From Plicaturopsis crispa FD-325 SS-3 (taxonomy: Eukaryota > Basidiomycota > Agaricomycetes > Amylocorticiales > Amylocorticiaceae): a DNA stretch of 64,000 nt. The notes under the pieces are model-generated. The model saw only the letters and a program-made list of their open reading frames with translations. It did not search any database and was not told the origin of the DNA. How positions within the stretch are numbered: position 1 is the first letter of the stretch; every line of letters begins with the position of its first letter. The stretch is taken from assembly GCA_000827205.1 (NCBI GenBank), contig KN832567.1, forward strand, positions 579,189-643,188, given 5' to 3'. A program made the position numbers and the translations under genes. Positions 6,013 to 64,000 of this stretch are shown in pieces.

Positions 6013-7779
6013 ATGCCGTCCAAGCAAGTGTTCGAAACCGCAGACAATGCCACTTACACCACCTCTAACGGTGCAGTTGTAAACGAGCCATATGCTGCTC
6101 AACGCGCAGGCATAAACGGGCCCCTCCTGCTTCAGGGTACGTCGCTGTCATCGTCGTCGCCGTGCAACCCCTAACTCTTTTTCTCACAGACTTCCACCAC
6201 ATCGACCTCCTCGCCCACTTTGACCGCGAGCGCGTTCCCGAGCGCGTTGTCCACGCCAAGGGTGCCGGTGCACACGGCGTGTTCGAGATCACCCACTCTC
6301 TCGCCGACATCACCGACTCCAAGTTCTTCTCCACCGTCGGCGCCAAGGCACGTACCAGCATCCGCTTCTCGACCGTCGGTGGCGAGAGTGGGTCTGCGGA
6401 CACTGCTCGCGACCCCCGTGGCTTCGCAATCAAGATCCGCACGGACGAGGGCAACCTCGACTGGGTGTTCAACAACACCCCCGTCTTCTTCATCCGCGAC
6501 CCGGTCAAGTTCCCCCACTTCATCCACACCCAGAAGCGCGACCCGCAGACGCACCTCAAGGATGCGGACATGTTCTGGGACTACCTCAGCCAGAACCCCG
6601 AGAGTATACATCAGGTCATGATCCTGTTTTCGGACAGGGGGACACCTGACGGGTACCACAACGAGCATGGATACTCCGGGCACACGCTCAAGTTCGTCAA
6701 GAAAGACGGTTCGTTCACGTACGTCCAGGTCCACGTCCGTGCGGACGGAGGATTTAAGGTGTGCCGAATTGACACTTGTGGAGTCAATGTTGCTAACGCG
6801 TTGTGCAGACCCTCGACAACGAGACCGCTGGAAAGCTCTCAGGCTCGAACCCAGACTACGGCACACAGACGCTCTTCGAGGCCATCGAGTCCGGGAAGCC
6901 GCCCTCCTGGACGGTGTACGTGCAGACGATGACGCCCGCGCAGGCCGAGTCCTTCCGCTACAACATCCTCGACCTCACGAAAGTGTGGCCGCACAAGGAG
7001 TTCCCTTTGCGCCCTGTCGGCAAGATCGTTCTGAACGAGAACCCGCAGAACTACTTTGCCGAGATCGAGCAGCTCGCGTTCTCGCCCTCGCACCTCATCC
7101 CCTACATCGAGTACTCCGCGGACCCCGTCCTGCAGTCGCGCCTGTTCTCGTACCCCGACACCCACCGCCACCGCCTCGGCCCGAACTACCAGCAGATCCC
7201 CGTCAACGCGCCGATCGTGCCTGTCGCGAACTTCCAGCGCGACGGCTTTGGCACGGTGAACGGCAACCAGGGTGCGCGGCCCAACTACCAGAGCAGCATC
7301 GCGCCGCTCAAGTACGATGGGCGTGTGGGCGCGATCGAGGGGGGCAAGCAGGACTCGGAGCGCGAGCGGCAGCACGAGACATTCGTCGGTGGCGCGTACC
7401 GCGAGCTGTCCGAGCTCACCGAGCGTGCGTCCCTTTCCTTTTCCGGTTTTTCAATGAAATACTAACTATCCCCGCAGTCGACTTTGAGCAGCCGCGCGCG
7501 CTGTGGAGCAAGGTGTTCTCGGACACGGACCGCGCGCACTACGTGTCGAACGTCGCGGGGCACCTCGGCGGCGCCAAGTCGGAGGTCGTCAAGGCGCGCC
7601 AGCTCGCGGTGTTCGCGCACGTCGCGCCCGAGCTCGCGGATGCGGTGGCCAAGGCGATCGGCTTCTCGGGCAAGGTCGACCCCGGGCTCATACAGGTGAA
7701 GAGCGCGGCGGAGGTCATTGGGTTCAGGCATAACATCACCGGCAAGAACACGAAGCAGCTGTTCCAGCAGAGGTTGTAA
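6013..7779 (+). CDS. monofunctional heme catalase
   Basis: Breaks down hydrogen peroxide. Four exons with introns 6137-6189, 6759-6808 and 7425-7477 give 536 residues, the small-subunit type. Active-site signature [13 protein letters not shown] carries the distal His near residue 63; the catalytic Asn lies in [14 protein letters not shown] near residue 136; the heme-ligand Tyr is in [17 protein letters not shown] near residue 346, followed by QQIPVN. The start [12 protein letters not shown] is the only in-frame ATG before the first intron. There is no signal peptide. The C-terminus QQRL is at most a weak match to a peroxisomal tripeptide, so cytosol or peroxisome cannot be decided. Confidence 0.95.
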
Positions 7780-8172: not shown

Positions 8173-11100
8173 ATGGCCCCAACGCTCAAGCGAAAACGGG
8201 GAAAAGAAACCCCTCGCGAGAAGGACTTGGAGGTGCGTACGCTCTGGCTTGCACGCGAGCTCGTACTTACATATAATGTGAACTAGAAAAGACAGAAGAC
8301 GCCTAGTGCGGACGTGTCGGAAGGTGAAGACGATGCCGAGGTGATGGGCGATGAAGATGAAGACGAGGAAGAGGAAGAATGGGGCGGCATAGGCGCCGAC
8401 ACCCCTCCTCCGTCCGGACCCTCCAATTCTGGCCCAGATAAATCTGGAAAAAAGCCCAAGAAACCACCCACGGGCGAAGAATTGCGCGCCATCAAAGACG
8501 CAACCGACCTATACCGCTCAAACTCGTTCAAATTGCAGGTGAGCATATGCCCCCTGCATCTCGCAGGGTTCGAAGGAATATCGCTGACCTTACCCTCGCC
8601 CAGATCGACGCCCTCCTTCCAAATGTGCGACCTAAGCCCAGTCGTGTGCCCCCGCTTGAGCGCGCCCTGCTGTCTCTACACACGTTCCTCACTACGCTGC
8701 CGTCTATATCGGCTAAACACCCCTTGGTCGCCGCACGGTCTACGCACAAAAGAGGGATTGCGGTGCCGTACCCAGCACCGCTGCCCACAGAGGACACGAA
8801 CTGGACCGTTGCTTTCAGCCCCCCAGCTGCAGAGGACATCACGCTCGTCGGCAGCTGGGCCGCAGGGCTCGGCGTGAAAGCGAAGGACGGCGCCTCATGG
8901 GGCGTCGATCTAGCGGTGGGGATGCCTGAGGTGAGCGGCTACTTTTCTATATGGTTGCACTCAAGGACGCGTTGACTAACTGGATGCCGGGACGTGGTAA
9001 AGGATTTGTTCCAAGAAAAGGACTACCTAAACGGCCGCTTCTTTCATAAACGCGCGTTCTATCTTGCGAGCATCGCTGCTGCGATCGCGAAAAAAGGCTC
9101 GGGTCAGAACTACGAGCTCGCGTACGAAGGCGACGATGCGCGCCGCACGACGCTCGTCCTTCGCCCCCACAACGGTCTGTCTTCCACCTATCGAACAATT
9201 ATTTCCTGGAGACTTACGGTTATTGGGCTCATATACAGACAACTCCGCTAACGACTTCACGAAACTCAACGCCTCCATACGAATAATTCCATATCTCCCG
9301 TCCCTGGGGCCAATTCCCATGCACCGTCTCTCGCCCGCGCACTCTAACCTCCGTGTAACCTCCTCTACTGCACCCACCGACACACCGGCACCCGCCGATC
9401 CCGTGCCAACGCCCCACTACAACGCCGCCCTCCTGCTCTCGACCACGCCCAAGGCACACCTGCTCGCCGCGCACACGCTGAAAGAGACCGCGCCCGCGTT
9501 CGGCGACGCGCTCGCGCTGCTGCGCGTGTGGGCTGCACAGCGTGGGTACGGGACCCTTGTACGCGGCTTCGAGGGGAAGGGCGCGTGGTGGAGCGCACTG
9601 CTCGAGTACCTGGTCATGGGTGGCGAAGAAGGTCTGGGTGCAGGCGCGAAGAGGAGGCGGCCGGTAGGGCGGGGGCTGAGCTCATATCAGCTGTTTAAGG
9701 CCGCGCTGGATTTTCTCTGTGAGTGTCACACGGAGTTCGACTTTCAGGAAGTGCTGATGCGACTCGTACCAGCAAAGCACGAGTTTGGGAAGGTGCCATG
9801 TTTTATGCGGAATCGGGGCGGTCATCGCGTATGCTTTTACATCATTCTCTGACTGTAGTTGTCGGTTGCTGATAGGGTTTTTGGACAGTATGACCCTCAA
9901 GAATATGTCGACAACCACGATTCGGTGTTCGTGGACTCGGCCTCGCCCATCAACTTTCTCGTTGGCGTCCCGCTTAGCTCCTTAGACCTTGTAGGTGCAC
10001 TCCCTTTCTACTTATACTATCCACTTATGAGTTTACCCTTGTGGCGTAGCTTCGGTACGATGCAAAAAAGACGCTTGAGGCGCTCGATAACCCCCTCGCC
10101 AAAGATCCATTTACAGAGGCGTTCCTCAAGGACCAGCGTGATCTACCCACGCGTTTCGACACCATCATCCGGTACGTCTGCTATCTGAACTAACCCGTCC
10201 GTCATGTGTGTGGACTTCTGATGTCCTACCTACCAGCGTTGACCTGTCGAATGCCAAGCCGAGGAGCTCGTCCCTGCATACGACCCTCGACCACGGCTCA
10301 GCTGCAAATGCGCTACTATCATCCCTTGCCGCGCTCCTCCGCCGGGGCCTCGGCGACCGCACCACGGCCATCGGGATTTTGCATGCGCCGAGTGGGACGA
10401 GGCCGACGGCTCAAGCACATCCCTCCACGCCCGCGGTCATCCACATCGGTCTCATCCATAACCCGGAGCACGCATACCGCCTCGTCGACCACGGGCCCGC
10501 CGCAGACGACCCGGACGAGGGTTTCCGCGAATTCTGGGGCGACAAAGCTGAACTGCGGCGCTTCAAGGACGGACGCATCGTCGAGAGCGTCGTGTGGGAG
10601 GTGAAAACCTCGGACGAACGTGCTCGTGTGCCCGGCATGGTCGTCCAGCACGTGCTCGCGCGCCATTTCGGCGTTGCGGCAGACGATGTGCAGACATGGC
10701 AAGCGGCGTTTGACAGCGTGCTCAGGCTGCCGGAGAGTGTTGCGCAGGCGTATGCGGATAGAGGTATAGTGCCCGGGTTCAAGCCCGCTATGGCGTCGTT
10801 CGACCAGTTTGTAAAGACGTTCAAGGTGTTGGATGACGAGCTGCCGCTCTCTCTGCTCAACGTGAGCCCTGCATCTCCTTACCTGAGGTACACAAGTGTG
10901 TTCAGCCCCGTACCGACTTCCGCTGCTGCGCTACCCGAGTCGCTGCGGTACTCCCCGCCTATGGAAATCGTCTTGGAGTTGGAAAAATCCTCGCGTTGGC
11001 CGGACGACCTGCGCGCCATCCAGAAAATCAAGCTGGCGTTCTTCGAGCGCATTGCGACGGTACTCATGGCGTCCGTCCCCGGGACGCGCGCGGCCGTGGT

Positions 11101-12394
11101 GGTTGGAGACCAGCCGGGCACGTCTGAGATACAGGACCAGGCACGGCTGGAGGTTGTCACGCCGCAGGGGTGGGCGTTCTCCGCGCGCATCTGGCACGAC
11201 CGCGAGGCTAACCTGCTCGACCGCATCATCAACGACAAGCCACGTATTCCTGGGCAGAAGCCAGAGGACGGCAAGGCGAGAGAGAGGCAGGAGGCACTCG
11301 AGGCGCGCGAAGTGTACCTACGGCGGTTCATCCACGCGCCACGCCACCACCGTGCAGTTGCAGCGCTCTGCCATCGCTATTCGGCGTTTGCGGGCACGGT
11401 GCGGCTGGTCAAGCGGTGGCTGGCGGCGCACTGGCTCTTGCATGGCCACGTCAGCGAGGAGGTCGTCGAGATTATATGTGCAAGCCTGTTCGTCAGCGGT
11501 GATCAGACTGCCGATGCTAGGGTAGGCGTTCCTGGGAGCAAGGAGCGTGGATTTGCAGCCGTTGTCGAGTTCCTCAAGGATTGGGCTTGGGAAGACGGGC
11601 TGTTCGTCCCGCTCTACGACAGCGAATCGCGGGCTGGTGTCGACTCCGCCCCTGCAGCCGGATCGAAACACGGTGTTTGGTCGGTATCTACAGACGTCGA
11701 CAAAGGCGGTCATATGTGGACATCGTCCGGCCCCGATATCGTCGCGGCACATCGCGTGCGCGCATTGGCCAAAGCGACCTGGAACTGCTTGCGTGGGATT
11801 GGGGAGGGTGGCCTTGACGTGCAGGTATAGTAGCACCTTTGTAAAAGGCACGTTTTGAGACTAATTTTTTCCATGACAGGCACTTTTCATACATCCTACC
11901 GAGGACTATGACTTTGTCGTACATCTAGAGCCCTCTGTTCTTCCGCGGTACTACCAAAATATTGATCCTGATAGTGCTGTTTGGGCAAAACGCGGGAAAT
12001 ACGCCAATATTCAAGACGCGGACGACTCCACCCGCCCTTCGCGCCCTGGGTTCGATCCAGCCATGCTGCTATTCGACGACATTCGAAGGACGTACACCGA
12101 CACGCTGAAAGTATTCTATGACCCATTAGGCGGAGACAAGATCGGCGCCGTCTGGGACCCTTCGCTGAAAACTCCTCGGCCGTTCAGAGTACTCGGCGGA
12201 TTTTCCAGCGTACCATTGCCCAAAGTATGCCTCTCGCGTTTATCATCATATCCTCACTTTGCTGATGTGCGCATCACTAGGAGTCTGAAAAGGCGAAAGA
12301 TAAAGGTCTTGTGGTATTGAATTCTAGCTCTATACTGAGCGAGCTCGAACTGTTAGGATCGGGCTTGGTCAAGGAGATCACTGTGCGTTCGTGA
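8173..12394 (+). CDS. UTP22: U3 snoRNP protein Utp22/Nrap
   Basis: Nucleolar protein of the small-subunit processome (UTP-C), needed for 18S rRNA maturation. Eleven exons are inferred: 8173-8232, 8287-8538, 8604-8930, 9003-9174, 9239-9718, 9773-9828, 9889-9990, 10050-10171, 10237-11824, 11880-12224 and 12281-12394. They sum to 3,618 nt, a whole number of codons, giving 1,205 residues, usual for the family. The N-terminus is basic and then strongly acidic (repeated E and D near residues 40-60). Nrap blocks follow: GDALALLRVWAAQRGYG, SSYQLFKAALDFL, DPQEYVDNHDSVFVD, GDKAELRRFKDGRIVESVVW and the C-terminal FYDPLGGDKIGAVWDP. The fold is a tandem inactive nucleotidyltransferase. The gene converges on the WD40 gene to its right with under 200 bp between stops. 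Confidence 0.92.
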
Positions 12395-25605: not shown

Positions 25606-25668
25606 CTAAAATACAAACAGAAAGGAAAACGAAATTAACTAGCTGCACAAAAAACGGTTCTCGAACTC

Positions 25669-32860: not shown

Positions 32861-35800
32861 ATGTTGTTCGAGCCCTTTTTTTACCTCGTCTCTCTGCTCA
32901 CCTTTTACACCAAGTCCTGGCTAGAGCAAACCACCTCCTTTCTGAGTGGCACCGACACCGAAACCGGAGCCGAGCGAGCACTAGTAGGAAATGTGTCCGT
33001 CCCTGAGGGCTTCCCGAAATCCGGCAATGGCCTGTGGTACATTTCCCCAGGCATGATCTGGGCGAAGGATTATCTGCCGATTGGGAATGGGTACCTCGCT
33101 GGTGAGTTTCCGTATCCTCCCTCCATTGTCCGTATCCTCCATATCCTCCATCGAGCTGTTCGATGTTCCCGCTGCTTACCGTTCGATGTTCCCGCTGCTT
33201 ACCGTTCGATGTTCCCGCTGCTTACCGTTCGATGTTCCCGCTGCTTACCGTTCGATGTATCCTGTGCTTACGGGTGTTGGAACTTTGGGGAAGCGATGGT
33301 CCCGGGCGGCACGGTCTACGAAGTCACGCAGTTCAATATCGAGTCGTTGTGGTCTGGAGGGCCTTTTGCGGACGCTGTGAGTGCGCTGTTACTCTACCCT
33401 TAAGTCGCGTCGTGTCCGTCGAGTCGCGTCCGTCGATTCGCGTCTTTCTAAGTCGCGTCCGTCGATTCGCGTCTTTCTAAGTCGCGTCCGTCGAGTCGAG
33501 TCGCGTCCGTCGAGTCGCGTCCGTCGATTCGCTTTCGTCGAGTCGAGTGGCGTCGCGTCGCGTCCGTCCGTCGAGTCGCGTCCCGTCGAGTCGCGTCCGT
33601 CGAGCGTCCGTCGAGTCGAGTCCGTCGAGTCGCGTCCTTCTAGTCGCGTCGCGTCCTTCTGCGCGTCGAGTCGCGTTCCTATACGCGTCATGGCCCCTTG
33701 TGTTTCCATACTGACCGTTCGCTTCGATACTGACCGCGCGCGTCTAAGCAGACGTACAACGGCGGCAACAGCCCGCCATCGGACAGGAGCGTTTTAGCAG
33801 CGGATACACAAGATATCCGGCATACGATATTCGCGAATGATAATGGGACTATAGATAGTACGTCCCGGGTAAATTTGAGACTTAAAAGAAGCTCACTCAT
33901 GTGTGTGTTTGACTAGACATCGAAGAGCTCGCTACACCAGCAGGCGCTTACGGTATGTATTCCTACTGGTACTATGTCTTTCTCCACCAATCACGTCGTG
34001 CAGGCTCATACATCGGCGCCGGCTACCTCATCAACACCCTCAACACCCTCAACACCCTCACCCCCACCACCACCACCACGCAACAGCCCACCCAAATCAA
34101 AAACTACACCCGCTGGCTCGACCTCGACATCGGCGTCGCCCGCACCGCATGGACGGTAGGGAACCAGAGCTTTATGCGGTATGTAGTGTATACGCGCGTG
34201 TAACCCGACTCGCACACGTATACTTATATCGTGGCGGATAGGGAGTCGTTCTGCTCGCACCCGGCGCAGGCGTGCGTGCAGCACCTCTCCCTCTCCACCA
34301 ACCTCTCCACCCACAACACGCACACGAACGACACGAACGCAGCACTCCCGACACACACATACGCGTTCGCGTACTCCCTGAACGGCACCGCTGGTTTGAA
34401 CGTGAACGTGACGTGCTGGGACGAGACGACCCTCCGGCTGCGCGGTACGGCGGGCAGCCCGGGTATGGTGTACGAGGTTTTGGGCAGGGTCTTTGTTTCG
34501 GGCGGGGACGCGAGTGTTTCGTGCGCGCCTGTGCAATCCGCAACACCCGTGTCCGTGCAAAACGCAAACGCGAACTTTCAATCCGAAGCGACTGTGACCA
34601 TGCAAAACGCAAACGCGACGGTGACAGTGCAAAACGCTACCACGTCCTGGATCCTCTGGGTCGGCGGCACGGAGTTCGACCAGGCCGCAGGGAACGCGGC
34701 GCACAATTTCACGTTCAGAGGGCCGGACCCGCATGACGCGTTGGTGGCGCTTCTGTCCGCCGATACCACAGGCGAAGGCGAAGGCGATTACAAAGAAGCC
34801 GATTACACCTCTCTACGCGCCGCGCACGTCGCCGACATAACCGCCCTGCAGTCCGGCTTCCGCCTGAACATAACAGGCGACTTCGATGTGGCGACGCTAC
34901 GGCCGACGGACGAGCTAATGCGCGCGTATCGCACCGATGTGGGCGACCCGTATCGCACCGACATAGGCGACCCATGGGTCGAGCAGGTATTGTTCAACTA
35001 CGGGCGGTATCTCCTCGGCGGGAGCGCGCGGGGGGTACTGCCGGCGAATTTGCAGGGGAAGTGGGCGGAGGGGGGGAGTAGTGCTTGGAGTGCTGGTATG
35101 TGCCTTCCGCTGGTGAGGTTTGAAGTGCGAAGTGCGAGACTGAGTTGAGGATGGTGCTGTAGATTATCGTGAGTGCTACAAGACTTAGCGCAAACAGGTC
35201 GTGGTGCGAACAGTGGGAATGTTATTTCGTAGATGCGAATATCAACCTACAGATGAACTACTGGGCTGCAGAGACGACAGGGCTCGACGTCACGCAGTCT
35301 CTGTGGAATTATCTCGAGGCAAGTACCGTCAGCCCTCCTAGCCTCGCCTTATTCTAGCTAATTGAATGCCGCGTAACTTGCAGCAAAATTGGGCACCTCG
35401 GGGTGCGGAGACAGCTCAGATCTTGTACAACATTTCACGCGGGTGGGTGACGCACAATGAGGTACGTGGCCTTGTTCTTGCAGCCTCTCTATGGTTAAAA
35501 ATTCCTGACGGGTTGTTAGATGAATGTGAGTGAGACTGACTGAAGTGCACGCCTCCGTTAGCTCAAACATATGTTTGCGCAGATTTTCGGGCATACTGGT
35601 ATGAAACTGAGCGGAAATAGCGCGCAGTGGGCTGATTATCCTGGTATGTTCCATTCCTCTCATTCTTATGATGTTTCTCAACTTGTTACTTTCAGAGTCT
35701 GCTGTATGGATGGTGAGCGTCCCATTCCACCCCCGTCCTCTTATCCTGCACAATTAATATTCACACCATCATGCTACTTAGATGATCCACGTATGGGACC

Positions 35801-53639: not shown

Positions 53640-53714
53640 GCGTGCTGTCGGTTTCCAGATGACTCGGCCAGCGTTGTGGAGGGAGAATCCGTTCCATTGT
53701 CAGGACCCTGAAAA
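53640..53714 (-). pseudogene. downstream exon remnant of family copy D
   Basis: After an acceptor (TTTGTATTTTCAG) come codons for GPDNGTDSP, the counterpart of the first codons of the Pro/Gln-rich frames at 19562 and 25605. The similarity stops within about 60 bp, so the long tail is absent here. Confidence 0.5.
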
Positions 53715-53766
53715 TACAAACAAACAAAACGAAATTAACTAGCCGTACGAAGAGAGCGCCACGAAA

Positions 53767-54125
53767 TCAATAGCAAGAAAAAACGGCATGAACGACCTGC
53801 GGGTCGTCGTCGAATAAATCTTCGTACGTGCAGGGAACCTCATCGGTGCTGACATGGCCGTCGAAAGGGGGGCAATGACCAACCTGTGAGGGTTTTGTTC
53901 CTGGGCCGTGCCCACAAGCAGAGTGCATCCAGAATAGGAACGTTTCGAGGATGGTTGGATACCGCGCTGTGCGTGACCGTATCTCGGTTATGCTGGCATC
54001 TGCGAAATCTAAAACGAAGGGATTGAGATGATGTGGAATGCCTAGAGGGAAGCGCGTACCATTCTCGAAGGTCCCGAATACCCATTCTTGATAAGTAGTG
54101 AAGGCGAAATGCTGGACTTTGTATA
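53767..54125 (-). pseudogene. family copy D/E, 3' half cut off by a transposon
   Basis: Contains the last part of the family: QHFAFTTYQEWVFG; an exon with PTILETFLFWMHSACG; QVGHCPPFDGHVSTDE; CTYEDLF; stop at 53767. It begins abruptly at 54125, in the middle of the exon, where the 7.2-kb element starts. The 5' half lies at 61312-62361 on the same strand. The last 11 bases here, 54115-54125, are repeated at 61312-61322. Confidence 0.8.
54115..54125. repeat. target-site duplication, left copy
   Basis: GACTTTGTATA, identical to 61312-61322. The bases next to it on both sides differ between the two copies, so the duplication is exactly 11 bp. Confidence 0.85.
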
Positions 54126-54135
54126 GGCTCGATAT

Positions 54136-54181
54136 ATCCAGCCGCTTCGGGACCTCACACGTTCGGGCGAAGCGGCTGGAT
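54136..54181. repeat. left subterminal hairpin of the element
   Basis: Perfect 14-bp arms ATCCAGCCGCTTCG (54136-54149) and its complement (54168-54181), loop 18 bp. A second small hairpin with 9-bp arms GTCACACTT / AAGTGTGAC follows at 54204-54230. Confidence 0.85.
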
Positions 54182-54631
54182 GTACTGGGCAGTCACATGG
54201 CGCGTCACACTTTCTACCGCCAAGTGTGACTCGAGACTTAGAATTCTCGCGCCTGAAGCTGTACTCCTAACCGACTTCGACCTTAGAAAAGAGGCATTGG
54301 TCTCAAAAAAGTCCAGAAACTTGTGTAATGAAAGACGAGTCATTTGCTAAATGTAACCAGATGAGAACAGGCAGAAAAAGAGTTTTTTTTTTCAAGGAAA
54401 ATGACTTCGTGAGTGAGGCGAGCGACCGGTGAGGCCTCGGTGATTCAGTCCAGTACTGGAGGTGCTGTGAGCTCCGTTGGACATTGCCGTCAATGGACTC
54501 GGAACCGACTGTGGGCAGCTGAATGTAATGAACAAGTCTGTACTATGGTGAATGTGATATAGGGAAACCACAAGAACATCGGGTCGAAGTATACGAGTAA
54601 ATGTAGATCAGCATGATGCCATAGACTCGAG

Positions 54632-57600
54632 TCACTCGACATCCCGCTCGTCCTCGTCCGCCTCCTCCTCGTATTCGTGGTCAAAATCGTCGTACTCGTC
54701 ACCAGCGAGGTCCTCGGCATCCATATCTAGCGATACATCCTCAGCATTATCGCGTGACAATGTAGGCTCAATATCATTGTCATCCACAATAAACTCGCCC
54801 CTGCCGTCGACATCTCTGTCAGTACAGTCATCGCTCTCGTCACCTGAGTCATCGCTCTCATTGCCGTCATCCTGCTGACCACTGGGCAGTGTATCGATGT
54901 CAATTCCATTTGCCATCGACGCTGCTCGGCGGGCCTCGATGACTTCGATATCATCATCTCCGACAATTGGTGAGAGTCGGCGACGTGCCTGCAGATTGCA
55001 GAAAGCCCGGTTATATTCGTGGAGTGGGTTCGTGGCGTTGTCGGTAAGCTGCTGCATGCCGGCATTCATAACGTCTACCGTGGGTGCATCGTCGTCGTCG
55101 AGAATACGGCCTTTCTCCGCGTAGACTTCGTGGTTTGATAAACTGCGCATGAGCTCGGGAATGTCATGGGTGAGGTTGAGTGTTGCGTGCCGGTTGCCTT
55201 GGTACGATCCGAAGACCATGTTCATGGAGGTGACCAGATACCGCAGAATACTCACGCAGGGGCCAATCATCCCTAGCCACTCCCACGAAGCTGAACTACC
55301 GTGGGCTTGATAAAAGTTCTACGAGAAAACAAGGATTTGATCAGCAGATGTCTAATGCACAGCAGAGAGACACACTTTAATCCAATAGTTCATGTGTTCC
55401 TGCATTAGATCGACCTCTACCCACGCGTTTGGCCGTCCGGTAGGGTTCAGCAGCCAGTTGTTGAACACAATATCCCTGATTAACAGTTGAATACAACCAT
55501 GAGACTAATGAACAGAACGGCGAATGCAAGTGAAGGCTCACCGTAAACCTTTTGGCCACACATGCGAGATGTTATGACACAGATGCAACATCTCGTGGGC
55601 GTATTTCGTCCGCCCGTTACCCCGGAAACCGATGGCCCAAGTTTTCAAGACCAGCACGACACGTCCGGAATCGCCACACTTAATGGCGTCTGTGAACTCT
55701 CGAGAAATGAGGGCGTCGCGCAGAAACAGGATGGCGTTCTCGAGAATCATGTCTCCGGCAGGGGTACATGGCTCAGCAAGTGGGTTTGCAGCCGCGGCGT
55801 TTTCCTGTGCTTGTCGTCGCCATCGCATATCCGCCACGACAGCGGAGCTTGCGTATTTGTTGACTATCTCTGCCGCGTGTTTCTCGAGAGTACCCCAAGA
55901 GCTCACAGAGTCAGCATAAGAGTCGAGAGAGCTTTGGTGTGATACGAGCAAGAGGAGATGGAGGACTCGAGCGTACAGGGACACAAATACAAGGTCACGG
56001 CACTTGCGAAAGGGAGGCAGGGACGAGAGGAGTATTGGATGGCGGTGAAGTACTGTGTTGTGGAAAGCGAGGCATCCAGGGTTCCGCGTGCCTGCATTCG
56101 GCTTGCCCCAATGCGTGACAAAAAAGCCGTGCATGTCTGCAATCTTCGCATGAAACAGGCCAGGCATCCAAACCCCCCACCCGAAACCTTCATAACCTCC
56201 CTCGTGGCCAGCACGAATGTTGACGATGGATCGGAGGCGGGCAATCGAAAGCTGGTCGCCAGCAAATATCTTGACATATCGAAGCCAACGGGAGAGCCTC
56301 TTGATCCAAAGAACATCGAAGGAGGTATCGACAAAGTTGGCATTGCCAACGATGGTTGATTCGTCGATTTCGAAGGCATTGATGGGATGAAGGGGTGTAC
56401 GATGTACCTCAATTTTCTGCGGGGTGACCGGCGTACAGCAGTCGAGGTCTTTACTGAACTTCGCAAATTTCTCGCCTCCGTGAGTGATAATGATTCGCAG
56501 TACGCAGTGAATGAGGCAGGCGTGGAAAGTCTTTGCTTCTTCCTCGTTGAGGACGATGTCTGTGATCGACAAAGGGGGTGCAGCGTCAAATGCAGTGGTC
56601 AGGTCAGCGACACGCATATCCTCGAGGCGCGCCTTCCATAAAGGCCAGATAGTTGCGCAAGTCCCGTTCTCCTGAGAATCTGTACAAAGAGTTAGGATCA
56701 TATACCCATGTAGACGGCGACACAATTACCTGTACGACCCATGATCTGCTCCGCCGCACGGAACACCATATTGATATTATCATAAACAGTCGCATAAAGC
56801 CCTGTTGCTGCCACACTACGCGCCGAGGTCATCATCGACTCAGAAAGAGTACGCAATGTGCCGGCTCGTCCGGGATGCAATAATGATGGATCCGTGACCG
56901 GAGATGCACCATCCGGAAGCCACTGGTCTGCCGCAGCAACACCCGGAGGATGGGCTGCATCGGCCGACTCAGCAGTAGTAGTACTGGTACTGGGTTGATG
57001 CGCAGGCGAAGGGGAGTGGCTACGGGAGGCGGACGCATTGCTTGGTGACGGAGAACGGCTGCGGTTAGATCGTTTTTTGTGTCGAGTCTTTTTCCGAGGC
57101 TTGGCTGTAAGATTGCTATAACTCTCCGCAAGACCCAGGTGCGAAACGACAGTCATCGATTGACGCTGGGTTCCTGTCGCGAAGAAGTATAAACCCATAA
57201 TTCGCTTGACAAAGTTGTTGGCATAGCTGTATTCCCCCAATAACTGTAGGGCAGCGGATGTAACAACCTAGTCGATGCGACAGGTCAGAATAAGGAATGA
57301 GTAGAAACAAGAATAGCTCACCATTGATTTTTTGAGCATCCGTGCTGGCGTTGCGGACTTGAGCTGCCTCACGGAAGTCGCAAATGAATTTAGAATGGAC
57401 ATGGTCACGGATGCTGAGTCCATGAGACGATCGTGTATCTTGGTCATGTCAAAGTCCTGGACAAATTTCGCATTGATGGGTCGCGTAATGGTCTGTAAAT
57501 ATTGCACGTCTGTAAACGCCTTGGCCTCGCTGCGAACCGCTCGCGCAGTGTAGTCAACTGCCCAATCGTGGACTTGCTTTCGTGCCGCTGGAGTATTCTC

Positions 57601-58227
57601 CTTCGATGCCCACAGGTCAAGGATCCGGCGCGCTGTACCGCGTGTCCTGAAAAACCCTTCCCATCGCGTCTTGGCATTCTTGTATACGGGATCAAAGACG
57701 TGGAGCATAAGGTCCCCGATTGTCAACCTGCGGGAGGCCAGACTCTCGAGGACGCTGTCTAGGAAGGAGATTTTTTCGCGCTCGACACGATTGGCATTCT
57801 CCACGGCCTGAAGTGCCTTGGCCCGATCATTAACGGCGCGCTGGATCTGGGCGTCCGCGAAGGTCTGTGCTCGCTTGCGCACAGATTTCCGCTGCCTAGC
57901 AGCTGCCCGTTCGTCTTTAGTGCCCCTAATTGGACTGCTGATTACGATGCCGTCACTAGATAATGGGGGTGGCGAAGAGTTTCGAGGGCGCCCAATATGC
58001 GAGGCTGAGTGCGGCTCGGCAGGACTAGCGGGACGACCATGGGGGAATGTAGGTGATGGCGGTGGTGAATACGGGTGGAGTGTGCTGAAGGGGCTGAAGC
58101 TGAGTAGTGCTGGAATTGGCGTCAAAGATTGTGCGCCATTGTCCAATGCATCGCCATCGTCGGAGGCGTTGTCACCGTCATCGTCAAATGCGAGTAACGC
58201 GAACCGGTTGCTATTCGGGGTGGACAT
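54632..58227 (-). CDS. DUF6589-like protein of the transposon, candidate transposase
   Basis: Five exons (58227-57322, 57267-56730, 56679-55542, 55475-55376, 55318-54632) sum to 3,369 nt, giving 1,122 residues. Start MSTPNSNRFALLAF. Layout: a disordered N-terminus with Pro/Ser and a basic coiled stretch (residues 1-170); a helical part; a Ser/Arg-rich linker; then the core with FEIDESTIVGN (about 585), FAGDQLSIARLRSI (about 623), WMPGLFHAKIADMHGFF, THWGKPNAGTRNPG, KYAHEMLHLCHN (about 845), LNPTGRPNAWVEVDLMQEHMNYWIK (about 875) and YQAHGSSASWEWL; and a very acidic tail. The core resembles, from memory, the agaricomycete family annotated DUF6589. The conserved Asp/Glu/His set could form a nuclease site; that is inference. 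Confidence 0.75.
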
Positions 58228-58364
58228 ATTGAACAGGGAAAATTGTGAGGGGAAGGAAGAAAAGGCTTGCAGGTCGGGGCGGCGCGCACGTAGCACGTGC
58301 TCGGATGCCAGTCAGGAATTAAATTCTACGACGTTCGATCTTGTAACCTCCACCAGAAATATCT
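58228..58364. promoter_or_regulatory. divergent promoter inside the element
   Basis: Only 137 bp separate the two start codons of the element's genes, so both must be driven from this stretch. No clear TATA box was seen. Confidence 0.45.
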
Positions 58365-60830
58365 ATGGCGCCCATTCCGCAGGGCTACCTGGCCCGCCGT
58401 GCAGAGAGAAGACAGTCGTCGCAGGAACGAAAGGAGAGTCTCCCCAAAAAGACATCTCTCACGGCAAAAGACCTCGAGGGCCTCGGCGAGCTCGTGAAGT
58501 CGAAATTTGGGCTCAAATACGACCTCAGGCAGTTTCAGGTGGATGCTGTCGAGGCGCAGTTGATGCAGAAGGATGTGCTCGTCCACGCAGGGACGGGACT
58601 TGGGAAAACAGCTATTGCAGCAGGCCCGCATGCACACCCAAGTGCGAAAGGCAAGGTCACGATAATGGTCTCACCACTGCTTGCCCTGCACGATGAAATG
58701 GTTAGTTCATTTCCATGCGGGCAATATTACAGCACACTCACAAGACTGTGGTCAGGCAGAGACATTTGCGTCCGAGTTTGGCTTGAAAGCGACGGCAGTA
58801 AACAGCTCGAATGGGGGCTGTAAACCAGAAGTGCTAAAGGTAAGATTGATTATAGTGTATAGGGCAATACAAAGAACTCACCGACGTGCATAGCAAATTG
58901 TTTCCGGAGACTGGCAGATAGTGATGATATCCCCCGAGATGCTGGTATCCCGGCGATTTACGCGAGAGGTGCTGAAGAATGCGGAGTTCTCCCAGCGTAT
59001 CCTCTCTGTCGTAATAGACGAGGCTCATGTAGTCTCCCACTGGGGCGACTCCTTCCGCAAGAAGTACGGAGAGCTTGGCAAAGTGCGAGCATTCCTTCCC
59101 CGGTCAACCCCGTTTGTCGCGCTCTCAGCGACGTTGGCTGCACGGGTGCGGCATGATGTCTTGACGAAACTACAATTCCACAAAACAAATTACGTTAATA
59201 TCGATGTCGGGAACGACCGCGCCAATGTCTCCATTGTCGTGCGCGGGATACAACATCCAATCAACACTTACGCGGACCTCGACTTCATCATCAACAAGCT
59301 TGTGGAAAACCCATCCGACATCCCAAAGACTTTCGTGTATTGCGATAACATCGCCGTTGGGGTCGAAATCATTGACCACTTGACCGCGCTTCTACCCGAG
59401 CGATTTCGTAACGCGGGGTTGATTCGACCGTATAATGCGGCCTTCTCAGGAAAGTACCGGAAGAAAGTCATGAGTTTGTTTCGGGATGGATCTGTGCGGA
59501 TAATGGTCTGCACGGATGCAGCAGGAATGGTCAGTCGGCAACACCCAAAAGAACAGTTGTATAACTAACTGGTTTATAGGGTTGCAATATCCCCGACATC
59601 GACGTTGTTGTACAGTGGAAGATGCCTGGGTCCGTCTCAACTTTTGTCCAGCGAGCGGGACGTGCGGGACGAGGGGCGGGGACTAAAGGCTTGGCGGTTC
59701 TGCTGGTGGAGCAGTCAGTGTACGGCGTGGATCCGGCGGAGATCAAGCATGTCCCACCTGCAGGAGGAAAGGGCAAGAAACAGAAGGGGAAGACCGGGAC
59801 TGAGCCTGTCTCTGCGAGCGATGCAAAGAAGAGGGCGGCTGCAAAGAAAGCGCGGGCTGTGGCACGAGGGGCGAAGCGAGGATCTAGGGATGGTACCGAT
59901 GACGACAAATACACGCGCGATGCACCACCTCTGCAGGCAGACGCTGTCGACGAAGGTCTTGCTGTGTTGGCGCAAACAGGATTCTGTCGCCGTGCCGTGC
60001 TAACTGAGGTCTACGCGAACGGGCCATTCGGTAAGATGCGAGCTTTAGAGCAACTAAATCAAATCCACTGACCATCGACTCGAATAGAAACCGATCCTAA
60101 GCTGCGGATTGTCCCTTGCTGCGACCTCTGCGATCCGAAATTACTTGATAGGACGCGTCCAGGGATACCTCCCACTCCAATGCGTCAGACGCGGCTGAAG
60201 AAGGGCATGCCGTGCGCGATGGTGCAATCCGCATTGCACGCGTGGCGAATGTCGGTATGTCGCCGTGACTTCGCGCATGCCCTATTCTCTGGGCCATCCA
60301 TCTTGAAAGACGAAACGCTCGACCTCTTGTCATCGGTGGGCCCGTTTGATTCTCGCGCAAAGCTGCAAAAAGTGTTAGGTCAACAATGGGACTGGGAGGC
60401 AAAATACGGCGACGAGCTTTTCGAGGTATTGGTAAAGATTGACATACCTCCATTGGTCGTGAAACCACGGGCGCTGCGAGGGACGAAGCGCGGGCCACCA
60501 GATGATACAAGCGAAACGGGTGTTCCAGCGTCGTCGAGGGCAAGAGGAAAGGCGAAGGCGAAGACAACTGCACCGACGGCGTCTTGCTCTGACTCGAACC
60601 TGGCAGATGGGAATGCAGTGGAAAAGAACAAAAGTTACGTACCAAGTTCTGATTCTCAGGCAACGAGGCCGGCCTCGCAGCCTGAGGTTAACGGGCAGAG
60701 GAACGTCTTACACGACCACAGCGGACCCCACGCCAGCGCTAGTAGTGGGAGCTCGTTCATGTCGTTCTCCCTGGATGCAGATACTTGGATGGCCAACCGT
60801 GTTGTACAACCTAAAGAATATAACCTTTGA
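58365..60830 (+). CDS. RecQ-like superfamily 2 DNA helicase of the transposon
   Basis: Five exons (58365-58700, 58756-58839, 58894-59529, 59580-60030, 60088-60830) sum to 2,250 nt, giving 749 residues. ATP-driven 3'-5' DNA unwinding is expected. Motif 0 RQFQVDAVEAQL; Walker A GTGLGKT (76-82); MVSPLLALHDEM; VMISPEML; Walker B DEAH (about 182); motif III ALSAT; KTFVYCDN; motif V CTDAAGMGCNIPDI; motif VI QRAGRAGRG (about 376). After the helicase core come a Lys/Ala-rich insert and a Cys pair motif (CCDLCD) like a RecQ zinc-binding region, then a Ser/Thr-rich tail. All motif residues are intact. It starts 137 bp from the divergent DUF6589-like gene. Confidence 0.88.
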
Positions 60831-60884
60831 GAGGAATCCAAATCGTGCATTTGTCTTGTTAGTTGTGTGCTAAACGATAGAGTC

Positions 60885-60995
60885 CCACTTGAAATATACC
60901 TCCGAGTCCGAGATCATTGTATTGAACGACGCGTTGAGTCTAACTTGAAGATATACCTCCGAGATAGTCTTGAACGCCGCGTCTTGTTGCAATAA
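60885..60995. repeat. short direct repeats near the right end of the element
   Basis: CTTGAA(G)ATATACCTCCGAG occurs at about 60889 and 60944, and TTGAACG-CGCG at about 60922 and 60971: two copies of a roughly 50-bp unit downstream of the helicase gene. Confidence 0.65.
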
Positions 60996-61226
60996 TTGCC
61001 GCGCGCATGTCAGAAATTGTCTCTCACGTTGAAGTGTTCAGTTTCAGCGAGAAAAAAGTGTTTTTTTGGCCTATAGTAATCGCATCCTTGGCACTCGGGG
61101 AACATTTCGGTATATACAAGTTCGAAACAAAATTTGAGCTATGAAGCATGTTTCGACGAAAAATCGCAAGTGCTCTGTCACCGCTGGCGCGGAAATCGAC
61201 TTCACGCCAAAACCGTGCCCAGTAGC

Positions 61227-61301
61227 ACCAGTCCGCTCGCAAGCTCGCGCCCGTCCTTCCCGTTTTGTCTTAGGGCGCACGTGACTTGCGAGCGGACTGG
61301 T
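61227..61301. repeat. right subterminal hairpin of the element
   Basis: Perfect 17-bp arms ACCAGTCCGCTCGCAAG (61227-61243) and its complement (61285-61301), loop 41 bp. The core CCAGTCCGCT resembles CCAGCCGCT of the left hairpin. Confidence 0.85.
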
Positions 61302-61311
61302 TACGAGTCTA

Positions 61312-61322
61312 GACTTTGTATA
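61312..61322. repeat. target-site duplication, right copy
   Basis: GACTTTGTATA, identical to 54115-54125. Confidence 0.85.
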
Positions 61323-62361
61323 TGAAGCAAAAATCGTTCACCTAAGTGAAGACGCGAGATGTCAAAACATATGTCAAGACAACATTCTCGACGTTGACTC
61401 GCCATGGCCCAGTAGTGTTGCCTTTTTTCTTCCATACTGGGAGGGACGCCCGGTTTGATGGAATCGACACGCTTGAACTAGTCCTCCTGTTAGCCCAAAT
61501 TATGCTGAGACTATAGAATGCCGGGAGGAACGCACTTCCCGTATGTTGACGAAATCTCGCATATCCCGGGGCGCCAAATACCATGGAGGAACCACAAATA
61601 CAGCCATTTTGGAATTTGTGCATGATATTGTTGTCTGAGTCACGAGACGTCAGTGAGGACGTTCCACTGGCAATGGTAGGATACATTGAAGGGCTTACAT
61701 TCCAGTCTGCAAAAACAAATGGGGTCATATACTCATATTGTATCCCCCACGCCTTATAGCGCCAAAATCTGCACGTTGGAGCGACGGAAGGAAATAGCTG
61801 GTGATATATCGTCGTGGCGGTTTCGAGAATGGTCATCTCGGTTCGCGTGACAAGGTTTTCGTCTGATTTTAGGTACCGCAGTCCGAGAAGAGTCGCCTCT
61901 ACACGCTTGGGTAATCCTGGCGGTATTTCCTCGACGACGCCTGAGGAATATGGGGTACATGATAAGTTACGGGGGGACCAGCTTGATTGAGAGAACGTGA
62001 CCTCACCGTCGACGTGGATCGTCAAGTCTTCTCCGTTGTCCGTGTTGTAGGTGAGTTGCCGTCGCGCGATACTCTCGTTGACTACAATTCAAACTGTTGT
62101 CAGTCACTTCGTGTTCCTACAGAGGGGAACAACCTGCGGACATTGATTTATGTGGCGTTCTACCAAACATTGGTCGTATCTGTGAATTCGTTGAAGGTAG
62201 TGGTATCCTCCTGGGTGCATGTAGCCATCACGGGGATGATATTCGCTGCGACAGTCGTCCTCTGGCATCGGTGGCACATCGTTGGTGTGCACAACTATCG
62301 GTAGCAATGCTTGCTGGACATAGTCTCTGGTTGCAATATGACATGGCTCGGTGCTCGACAT
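61323..62361 (-). pseudogene. family copy D/E, 5' half cut off by a transposon
   Basis: Starts at the ATG at 62361 (MSSTEPCHIATRDYV), with a TATA box (TATAAAG) about 65-70 bp upstream. Blocks present: DYVQQALLPIVVHT; HPRDGYMHPGG; RIHRYDQ; LTIHVDG before an intron; EIPPGLPKRVEATLL; YHQLFPSVAP; YMTPFVFADWN; KMAVFVVPPWYLAPRDM; KRQHYWAM; VNDFCFIYKV, where the element begins. No other break was seen, so the insertion appears to be what disabled this copy. Confidence 0.8.
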
Positions 62362-63178
62362 GATGCCAAGCTTTGGGGGAGTATGAGTTTTGAGGATATC
62401 GTTTTGAGGATTGTCATGCTCGACTTTATACCTAGGCCAAACGCCGTGTACCTTCGCAGAACCTAAATACAAAGGAAAACAATACGATTGTCAGGATCAG
62501 AAAACGGGGAGAACAAATAGCGAAGTGCTCAACTCGGACCGACTTGTCACTGGCAGTTTCTCGAATACAACAGACGAGCAACAGACGATGTCGAATCGCC
62601 ATGACAAACAACTCCGTGTGTAGCCATATGTATCCGTGTAGATCCAAGTCGGATAATAACACTTTTTTCAAAAAGCACAATTCAGCCAGGATTCAGCGCC
62701 TGCGGCAAGCCTGAGGCTTGAGCTCGAGCTCGGTGCTGCTCGAGTTTCCGGCCGAAGGTTGTATTTTCCGCGGCTGGAGTCCATTCGCAGTGAGCATGTG
62801 AGCGGGAACGCTTTTTTGTGGCGAGTCGCGACTTCGATCGCGTCCATGGCCACCGCGTGCAAACCGCGTGAGTCTTTGGCCTTCCGCCATCTCAGTAAGA
62901 CTATTCCCGCTCGAGATTTATTAGATTCTACATGCTCGAGTATATTGGGTCTACGGTCCTAGCCGCATCTAATGCTAGGCAACAAGCAACGATGTTGGGA
63001 AAGGGCGCTTGCAAACCTCGGTCGAACGAAATTCTGCGAACACAGCCTGCTTAAGCACTACCCGTGGCAAGTCCTTGTTCGGCCAGCGCTAAGGGAGAAT
63101 CCGTTCCATTATTGGGAGCCTGAAAATGCATAGAAGGAAAACGAAATTAACCAGCCGTACGAAAAGAGCGCCACGAAA
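62362..63178. other. spacer between copies D/E and F
   Basis: Holds the D/E promoter and the 3' flank of copy F. At 63105-63121 lies the downstream acceptor with codons APNNGTDSP, as in the other copies. No other gene recognised. Confidence 0.45.
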
Positions 63179-64000
63179 TCAATGGCAAGAAAAAACGGCG
63201 TGTACGACCTCCGGGTCGTCATCAAATAGATCTTCGTACGTGCAAGGAGCCTCATCGGTGCTGAGGTGACCTTGAAATGGGGGGCAGTAACCAACTTGTG
63301 ATGGTTTCACTCCAGGGTCGTGTCCGCAAGCAGAGTGCATCCAAAACAAGAATGTTTCGAGTATCGTTGGCCACCGTGAGGTGTAACCACGCACTTCAGA
63401 AACGCAAACGTCTGCAAAATCTACGGAAAAGACGATTAGAAGAAATTCGGAGATATAAGGATAAATAGCCTATACACACCGTCCGAAAAACATCCAAACA
63501 CCCATTCCTCATATGTTGTGAAGGCGAAGTGCTGGACCTGATGCATATAACAGAAATCGTTCACCTGGTTGACGATTAATGCCGCACAGTTAATTTGCAG
63601 ACGATGCATGGCGAAGAAGACGTTTAACTTGCCAAGGCCCAATAGTGCTGACGTTTCTGCTCCATATCTGGCTCTGTGCCCGGCCGTATGAAATCCGTGC
63701 CTTTGAACTAGGTCTAACGTAAGCCCGTGTAGGATGAAACATGACTCGTAGCACGCACTGCACGTATATTGACGAAATCACGCATATCTCTTGGCGCCAA
63801 ATACCATGGCGGAACCACGAAAACAGCCATCTTGCTATTTGTAAACGATTCTGTCTCCTGTGTACAAAGTCGTAGGTAAGCAAAGATGGCTAGCGAGGAA
63901 GACATGACAGCGTACAGTCCAATCCGCGAAAATGAAAGGGATCATGTATTGGGGTTTTAACCCCCACTCTGGATGCCGCCGAAAAGTGGCATTCGGGGCA
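63179..64000 (-). CDS. uncharacterised expanded family, copy F, 5' end beyond the window
   Basis: Partial copy running off the right edge. Visible in order: KMAVFVVPPWYLAPRDMRDFVNI; KRQHYWAL; VNDFCYMHQVQHFAFTTYEEWVFGCFSDG; TSRWPTILETFLFWMHSACG; QVGYCPPFQGHLSTDE; CTYEDLFDDDPEVVHAVFSC; stop at 63179. It is closer to copy D/E than to A, B or C and stands in tandem with it, so these two are probably a late duplication. Confidence 0.65.

Follow-up and report, generated by a model that had tools for sequence, protein, structure and literature searches.

The window, that is, the whole 64-kb stretch of DNA analysed, contains a host gene split by an insertion. The insertion is flanked by a duplicated target sequence, has inverted ends accompanied by hairpins, and carries two intact reading frames. 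The genes at the locus are as follows.

53767-54125, minus strand: host gene, 3′ half (bounds from the earlier sequence reading; frame checked beside the junction)
54632-58227, minus strand: DUF6589 (PF20231) gene, presumed transposase, 1122 aa (introns 57268-57321, 56680-56729, 55476-55541 and 55319-55375)
58365-60830, plus strand: RecQ-like SF2 helicase gene, 749 aa (introns 58701-58755, 58840-58893, 59530-59579 and 60031-60087)
61323-62361, minus strand: host gene, 5′ half (bounds from the earlier sequence reading; frame checked beside the junction)
63079-63842, minus strand: uninterrupted paralogue of the host gene, representing the empty site (bounds as aligned; final kb of the window)

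The sequence-only reading had proposed an insert of 7,186 bp lying between identical repeats, and the junctions confirm it. The 11-mer GACTTTGTATA has two exact copies, 54115-54125 and 61312-61322; the rest of the 64-kb window contains no further copy on either strand. Shuffles predict 0.01 copies, and none of 100 shuffles contained two. The stretch separating the copies, 54126-61311, is 7186 bp long. When the flanks are joined through a single repeat copy, they align with the paralogue across the site with 72% identity (563 identical columns out of 786, and 49 gap columns). The host protein at the junction, VNDFCFIYKVQHFAFTTYQEWVFG, and the corresponding paralogue segment, VNDFCYMHQVQHFAFTTYEEWVFG, are of equal length and identical at 19 of 24 positions, as counted by eye. 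Because the paralogue has the same length, nothing beyond the insert and one repeat copy has been added here. The host frame is open at the junction, in agreement with the proposal that the interrupted exon is in frame over the gap. An in-frame TAG is found immediately ahead of the VND codons of the interrupted gene. Since AG occupies the same place in the paralogue, this TAG may be a splice acceptor; alternatively, the host copy may already have been degenerate.

The long host-gene frame at 61345-62088 has no Pfam match. Copies of the host family are found nearby at 53680-53971, 61530-61657, 63092-63383 and 63753-63880 (72% identity overall, 77-83% in the best stretches), and a short 47-bp match to the family lies at 25622-25668. 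Elsewhere in the window, tandem repeats at 33135-33658 are of two types, one with the 23-bp unit GTTCGATGTTCCCGCTGCTTACC and the other a degenerate array of the GTCGCGTCC type. Three of 10 long window frames searched against Pfam gave matches: 10142-11827 to Nrap nucleolar protein domains, 6622-7776 to a catalase-related domain and 340-1362 to aldo/keto reductase.

The length of the duplication is defined by the ends of the element, as follows.

54115-54123, plus strand: target-site duplication, left copy, GACTTTGTA (match extends to 54125)
54124-61311, no strand: transposon, 7188 bp on the 9-bp reading, with termini TAGGCTCG...CGAGTCTA
54124-54131, plus strand: left terminal inverted repeat, TAGGCTCG (7/8 identical to the right end)
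61304-61311, minus strand: right terminal inverted repeat, TAGACTCG, read inward (7/8 identical to the left end)
61312-61320, plus strand: target-site duplication, right copy, GACTTTGTA (match extends to 61322)

In the 9-bp register, with GACTTTGTA as the duplicated sequence, the two ends agree at seven of their first eight bases, as TAGRCTCG, whereas in the 10- or 11-bp register they agree at one of eight. When the bases of the ends were shuffled 2000 times, one shuffle gave a match of at least 7/8; this control covers a single register, while three (9, 10 and 11 bp) were tried. Gapped alignment of the ends scores 34 for 9 bp and 10 bp alike and 32 for 11 bp. The gapped similarity extends for about 34 nt, beginning at the 9-bp register, and its score was reached in 1 of 2000 shuffles. 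The paralogue does not fix the length, as the site is followed by TAT in the BLAST gapped alignment and by CAT in a codon-by-codon reading. Thus, duplications of 9, 10 or 11 bp are all readable, and we favour 9 bp. Of the 11-bp duplication proposed earlier, the 11-bp match stands, and it is better read as a 9-bp duplication plus two chance matches. Under the 9-bp reading, the match runs two bases further because the terminal TA of the element, at the left junction, is matched by a TA of the host at the right junction, and the element extends from 54124 to 61311, or 7188 bp. The 11-bp duplication is set aside because the ends agree at 1/8 in that register rather than at 7/8.

Just inside the termini, both ends have the potential to fold.

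54133-54184, no strand: left subterminal hairpin (17-nt arms 54133-54149 and 54168-54184, 94% complementary)
61227-61301, no strand: right subterminal hairpin (17-nt arms 61227-61243 and 61285-61301, 100% complementary)

DNA folding of two nested stretches per end gave z scores of -4.4 to -6.4 in all four cases, with equal stability in 0 of 200 shuffles for each. CCAG(T)CCGCT, a motif derived from the element's own ends, is found once in each of the four hairpin arms and at no other place in the window, a count made without a shuffle control. Given the hairpin arms and the presence of this motif in all four of them, each end is palindromic with a core common to both, as expected for a transposase binding site. 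The duplication, the paralogue, the ends and the folding give good support to the proposal of a DNA transposon that has two genes, a target duplication and hairpin ends.

Two further repeats lie inside the element. An extra copy of the terminal octamer TAGACTCG is found at 54622-54629, just beyond the DUF6589 stop codon, and a perfect 13-bp direct repeat, ATATACCTCCGAG, at 60894-60906 and 60951-60963, downstream of the helicase gene. No second copy of the element is present within the 64-kb window.

The two genes of the insert are, as had been read from the sequence, long, intact and divergent. Both frames are open, with GT..AG introns that were placed by hand, and have no internal stops. Residues 513-938 of the larger protein match DUF6589 (PF20231) with 477 bits (E 5e-143). 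The acidic and histidine motifs pointed out earlier are all present, FEIDES from residue 584, GDQL from 622 and EVDLMQEH from 881, and they are candidate catalytic motifs. The protein is predicted to be a DDD/E transposase. Single-sequence structure prediction of DUF6589 exon 3 (378 aa; EVDLMQEH is encoded by another exon) gave a mean pLDDT of 37, too low for a fold to be read. A PDB search with the DUF6589 core returned two aldolase sequences, each at E 0.17, and nothing else; we regard these hits as noise. The helicase protein has the Pfam domains DEAD and Helicase_C, and its nearest solved structures, among the best 60 of 192 sequences, are RecQ, WRN, RECQ5 and BLM chains. No RecQ zinc-binding or RQC domain was found in it by Pfam at E values up to 1. 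At the same threshold, neither protein of the insert has a Pfam match beyond DUF6589, helicase or P-loop families, and no Academ-named Pfam match was obtained for either.

Two DUF6589 queries and part of the helicase gave 0, 6 and 12 pattern matches in viral_contigs, with no confirmed relative, and two degenerate motif scans of the same collection gave 0 matches. The 55 pattern matches of DUF6589 exon 3 in the prokaryote collection genome_contigs include no relative, and tblastn with this exon found none in phages and plasmids. With a fungal source, the lack of relatives in viral, prokaryote, phage and plasmid collections would be no surprise.

The DUF6589 protein, acting as the transposase, would bind and pair the palindromic ends and cut at the TAG...CTA termini. 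The cut ends would then be joined to target strands with a 9-bp stagger, and gap repair would generate the 9-bp duplication. The reaction would most likely be DDD/E cut-and-paste, or copy-out. The RecQ-like helicase would probably act in trans, either opening the hairpin-prone ends or processing a DNA intermediate or the donor gap.

AcademH was reportedly defined by Kojima in 2020. According to an excerpt of a published account, AcademH elements generate duplications of 9 or 10 bp and AcademX elements duplications of 3 or 4 bp, a difference apparently tied to whether a helicase or a nuclease is encoded (PMC10045372). RecQ helicase is listed, in a passage of another, among the non-transposase proteins of Academ (PMC3627910). 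In similar excerpts, AcademH is described as low-copy in Basidiomycota, Ascomycota and Mucoromycota (PMC10799480), and putative Academ elements are noted in the mushroom Marasmius oreades (PMC8290104). The element is filed as probable AcademH on the basis of its 9-bp duplication (PMC10045372) and its RecQ helicase (PMC3627910), as printed in those passages. The duplication is 9 bp when the ends are in register (the match is 11 bp if the ends are ignored); the helicase is of the SF2/RecQ type, with DEAD and Helicase_C domains and RecQ, WRN, RECQ5 and BLM as best relatives; and terminal inverted repeats are present as TAGRCTCG (7/8). Nothing in the comparison, which is one of descriptions, contradicts AcademH; a difference is that the printed Academ passages, as excerpted, make no mention of hairpin ends. 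Thus, the element is probably AcademH, a known kind rather than a new class, being matched to printed descriptions of duplication length and helicase type. The novelty implied earlier for the transposase/RecQ pair is not supported, as RecQ in Academ (PMC3627910) and AcademH with 9-10 bp duplications (PMC10045372) are already in print in these passages.

The exact duplication, the equal-length empty-site paralogue, the in-register ends, the hairpins, the RecQ-like helicase and the literature together argue for an AcademH-lineage insertion. Most likely, the locus received an AcademH-lineage DNA transposon with a DUF6589 transposase; the element appears to be complete, and it probably inserted fairly recently. 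The element may also be active at present. What the locus adds to the published picture is a link that it suggests, that of DUF6589 to an AcademH-type element as its transposase.

The strongest competitor is that DUF6589 is the transposase of a separate, undescribed superfamily, unrelated to Academ, which moves units with palindromic hairpin ends, recruited its dedicated RecQ helicase independently and makes 9-11 bp duplications. Pfam still lists the domain as one of unknown function. The word DUF6589 occurs in no paper of the literature searched, a body of work outside which lie most subscription journals and the AcademH paper, and no search of the same literature linked DUF6589 to any transposon. 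The silence of the excerpted Academ passages on hairpin ends points the same way. Against it, both the duplication length and the helicase type fit AcademH as printed in the available passages, and we regard a separate superfamily as unlikely.

KolobokH is a fungal lineage that also encodes a RecQ helicase, and excerpts of its description state that it is reported from fungi only, that the Kolobok superfamily makes 4-bp TTAA duplications, and that in KolobokH the helicase follows the transposase domain (PMC9587614). The shared helicase notwithstanding, the duplication here is 9-11 bp and reads GACTTTGTA rather than TTAA, which already contradicts this assignment, and the helicase is encoded by a separate, divergent gene; KolobokH is thus highly improbable. 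Just as hard to credit is a locus without a transposon, that is, two host genes amid unrelated gene fragments or an assembly artefact: a single copy was examined, but the duplication is exact, the ends match and a paralogue of equal length spans the site.

Three other kinds of element were considered and rejected. AcademX belongs to the same superfamily as AcademH but, in the excerpt of PMC10045372, makes 3-4 bp duplications and encodes a nuclease where AcademH encodes a helicase; the present element has a 9-11 bp duplication and a helicase, and Pfam finds no nuclease domain. A Starship is set aside, as Pfam (E up to 1) gives just DUF6589 and helicase/P-loop families. Starships carry a tyrosine recombinase. 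Helitrons resemble the element in having a helicase and a terminal hairpin, but they have an HUH/Y1 nuclease and make no target duplication, whereas here a duplication is present and neither protein has an HUH/Y1 Pfam domain or a Helitron_like_N match.

If the AcademH-lineage reading with a DUF6589 transposase is true, the Pfam family DUF6589 could be annotated as the AcademH transposase, and the DUF6589 genes said to be scattered through agaricomycete genomes would be recognisable as mobile DNA rather than as host genes. In all other respects the element is unremarkable, a well-preserved representative of a known kind. Its hairpin ends, lying beside a RecQ helicase gene, would offer a testable reason for the carriage of a helicase by these elements.
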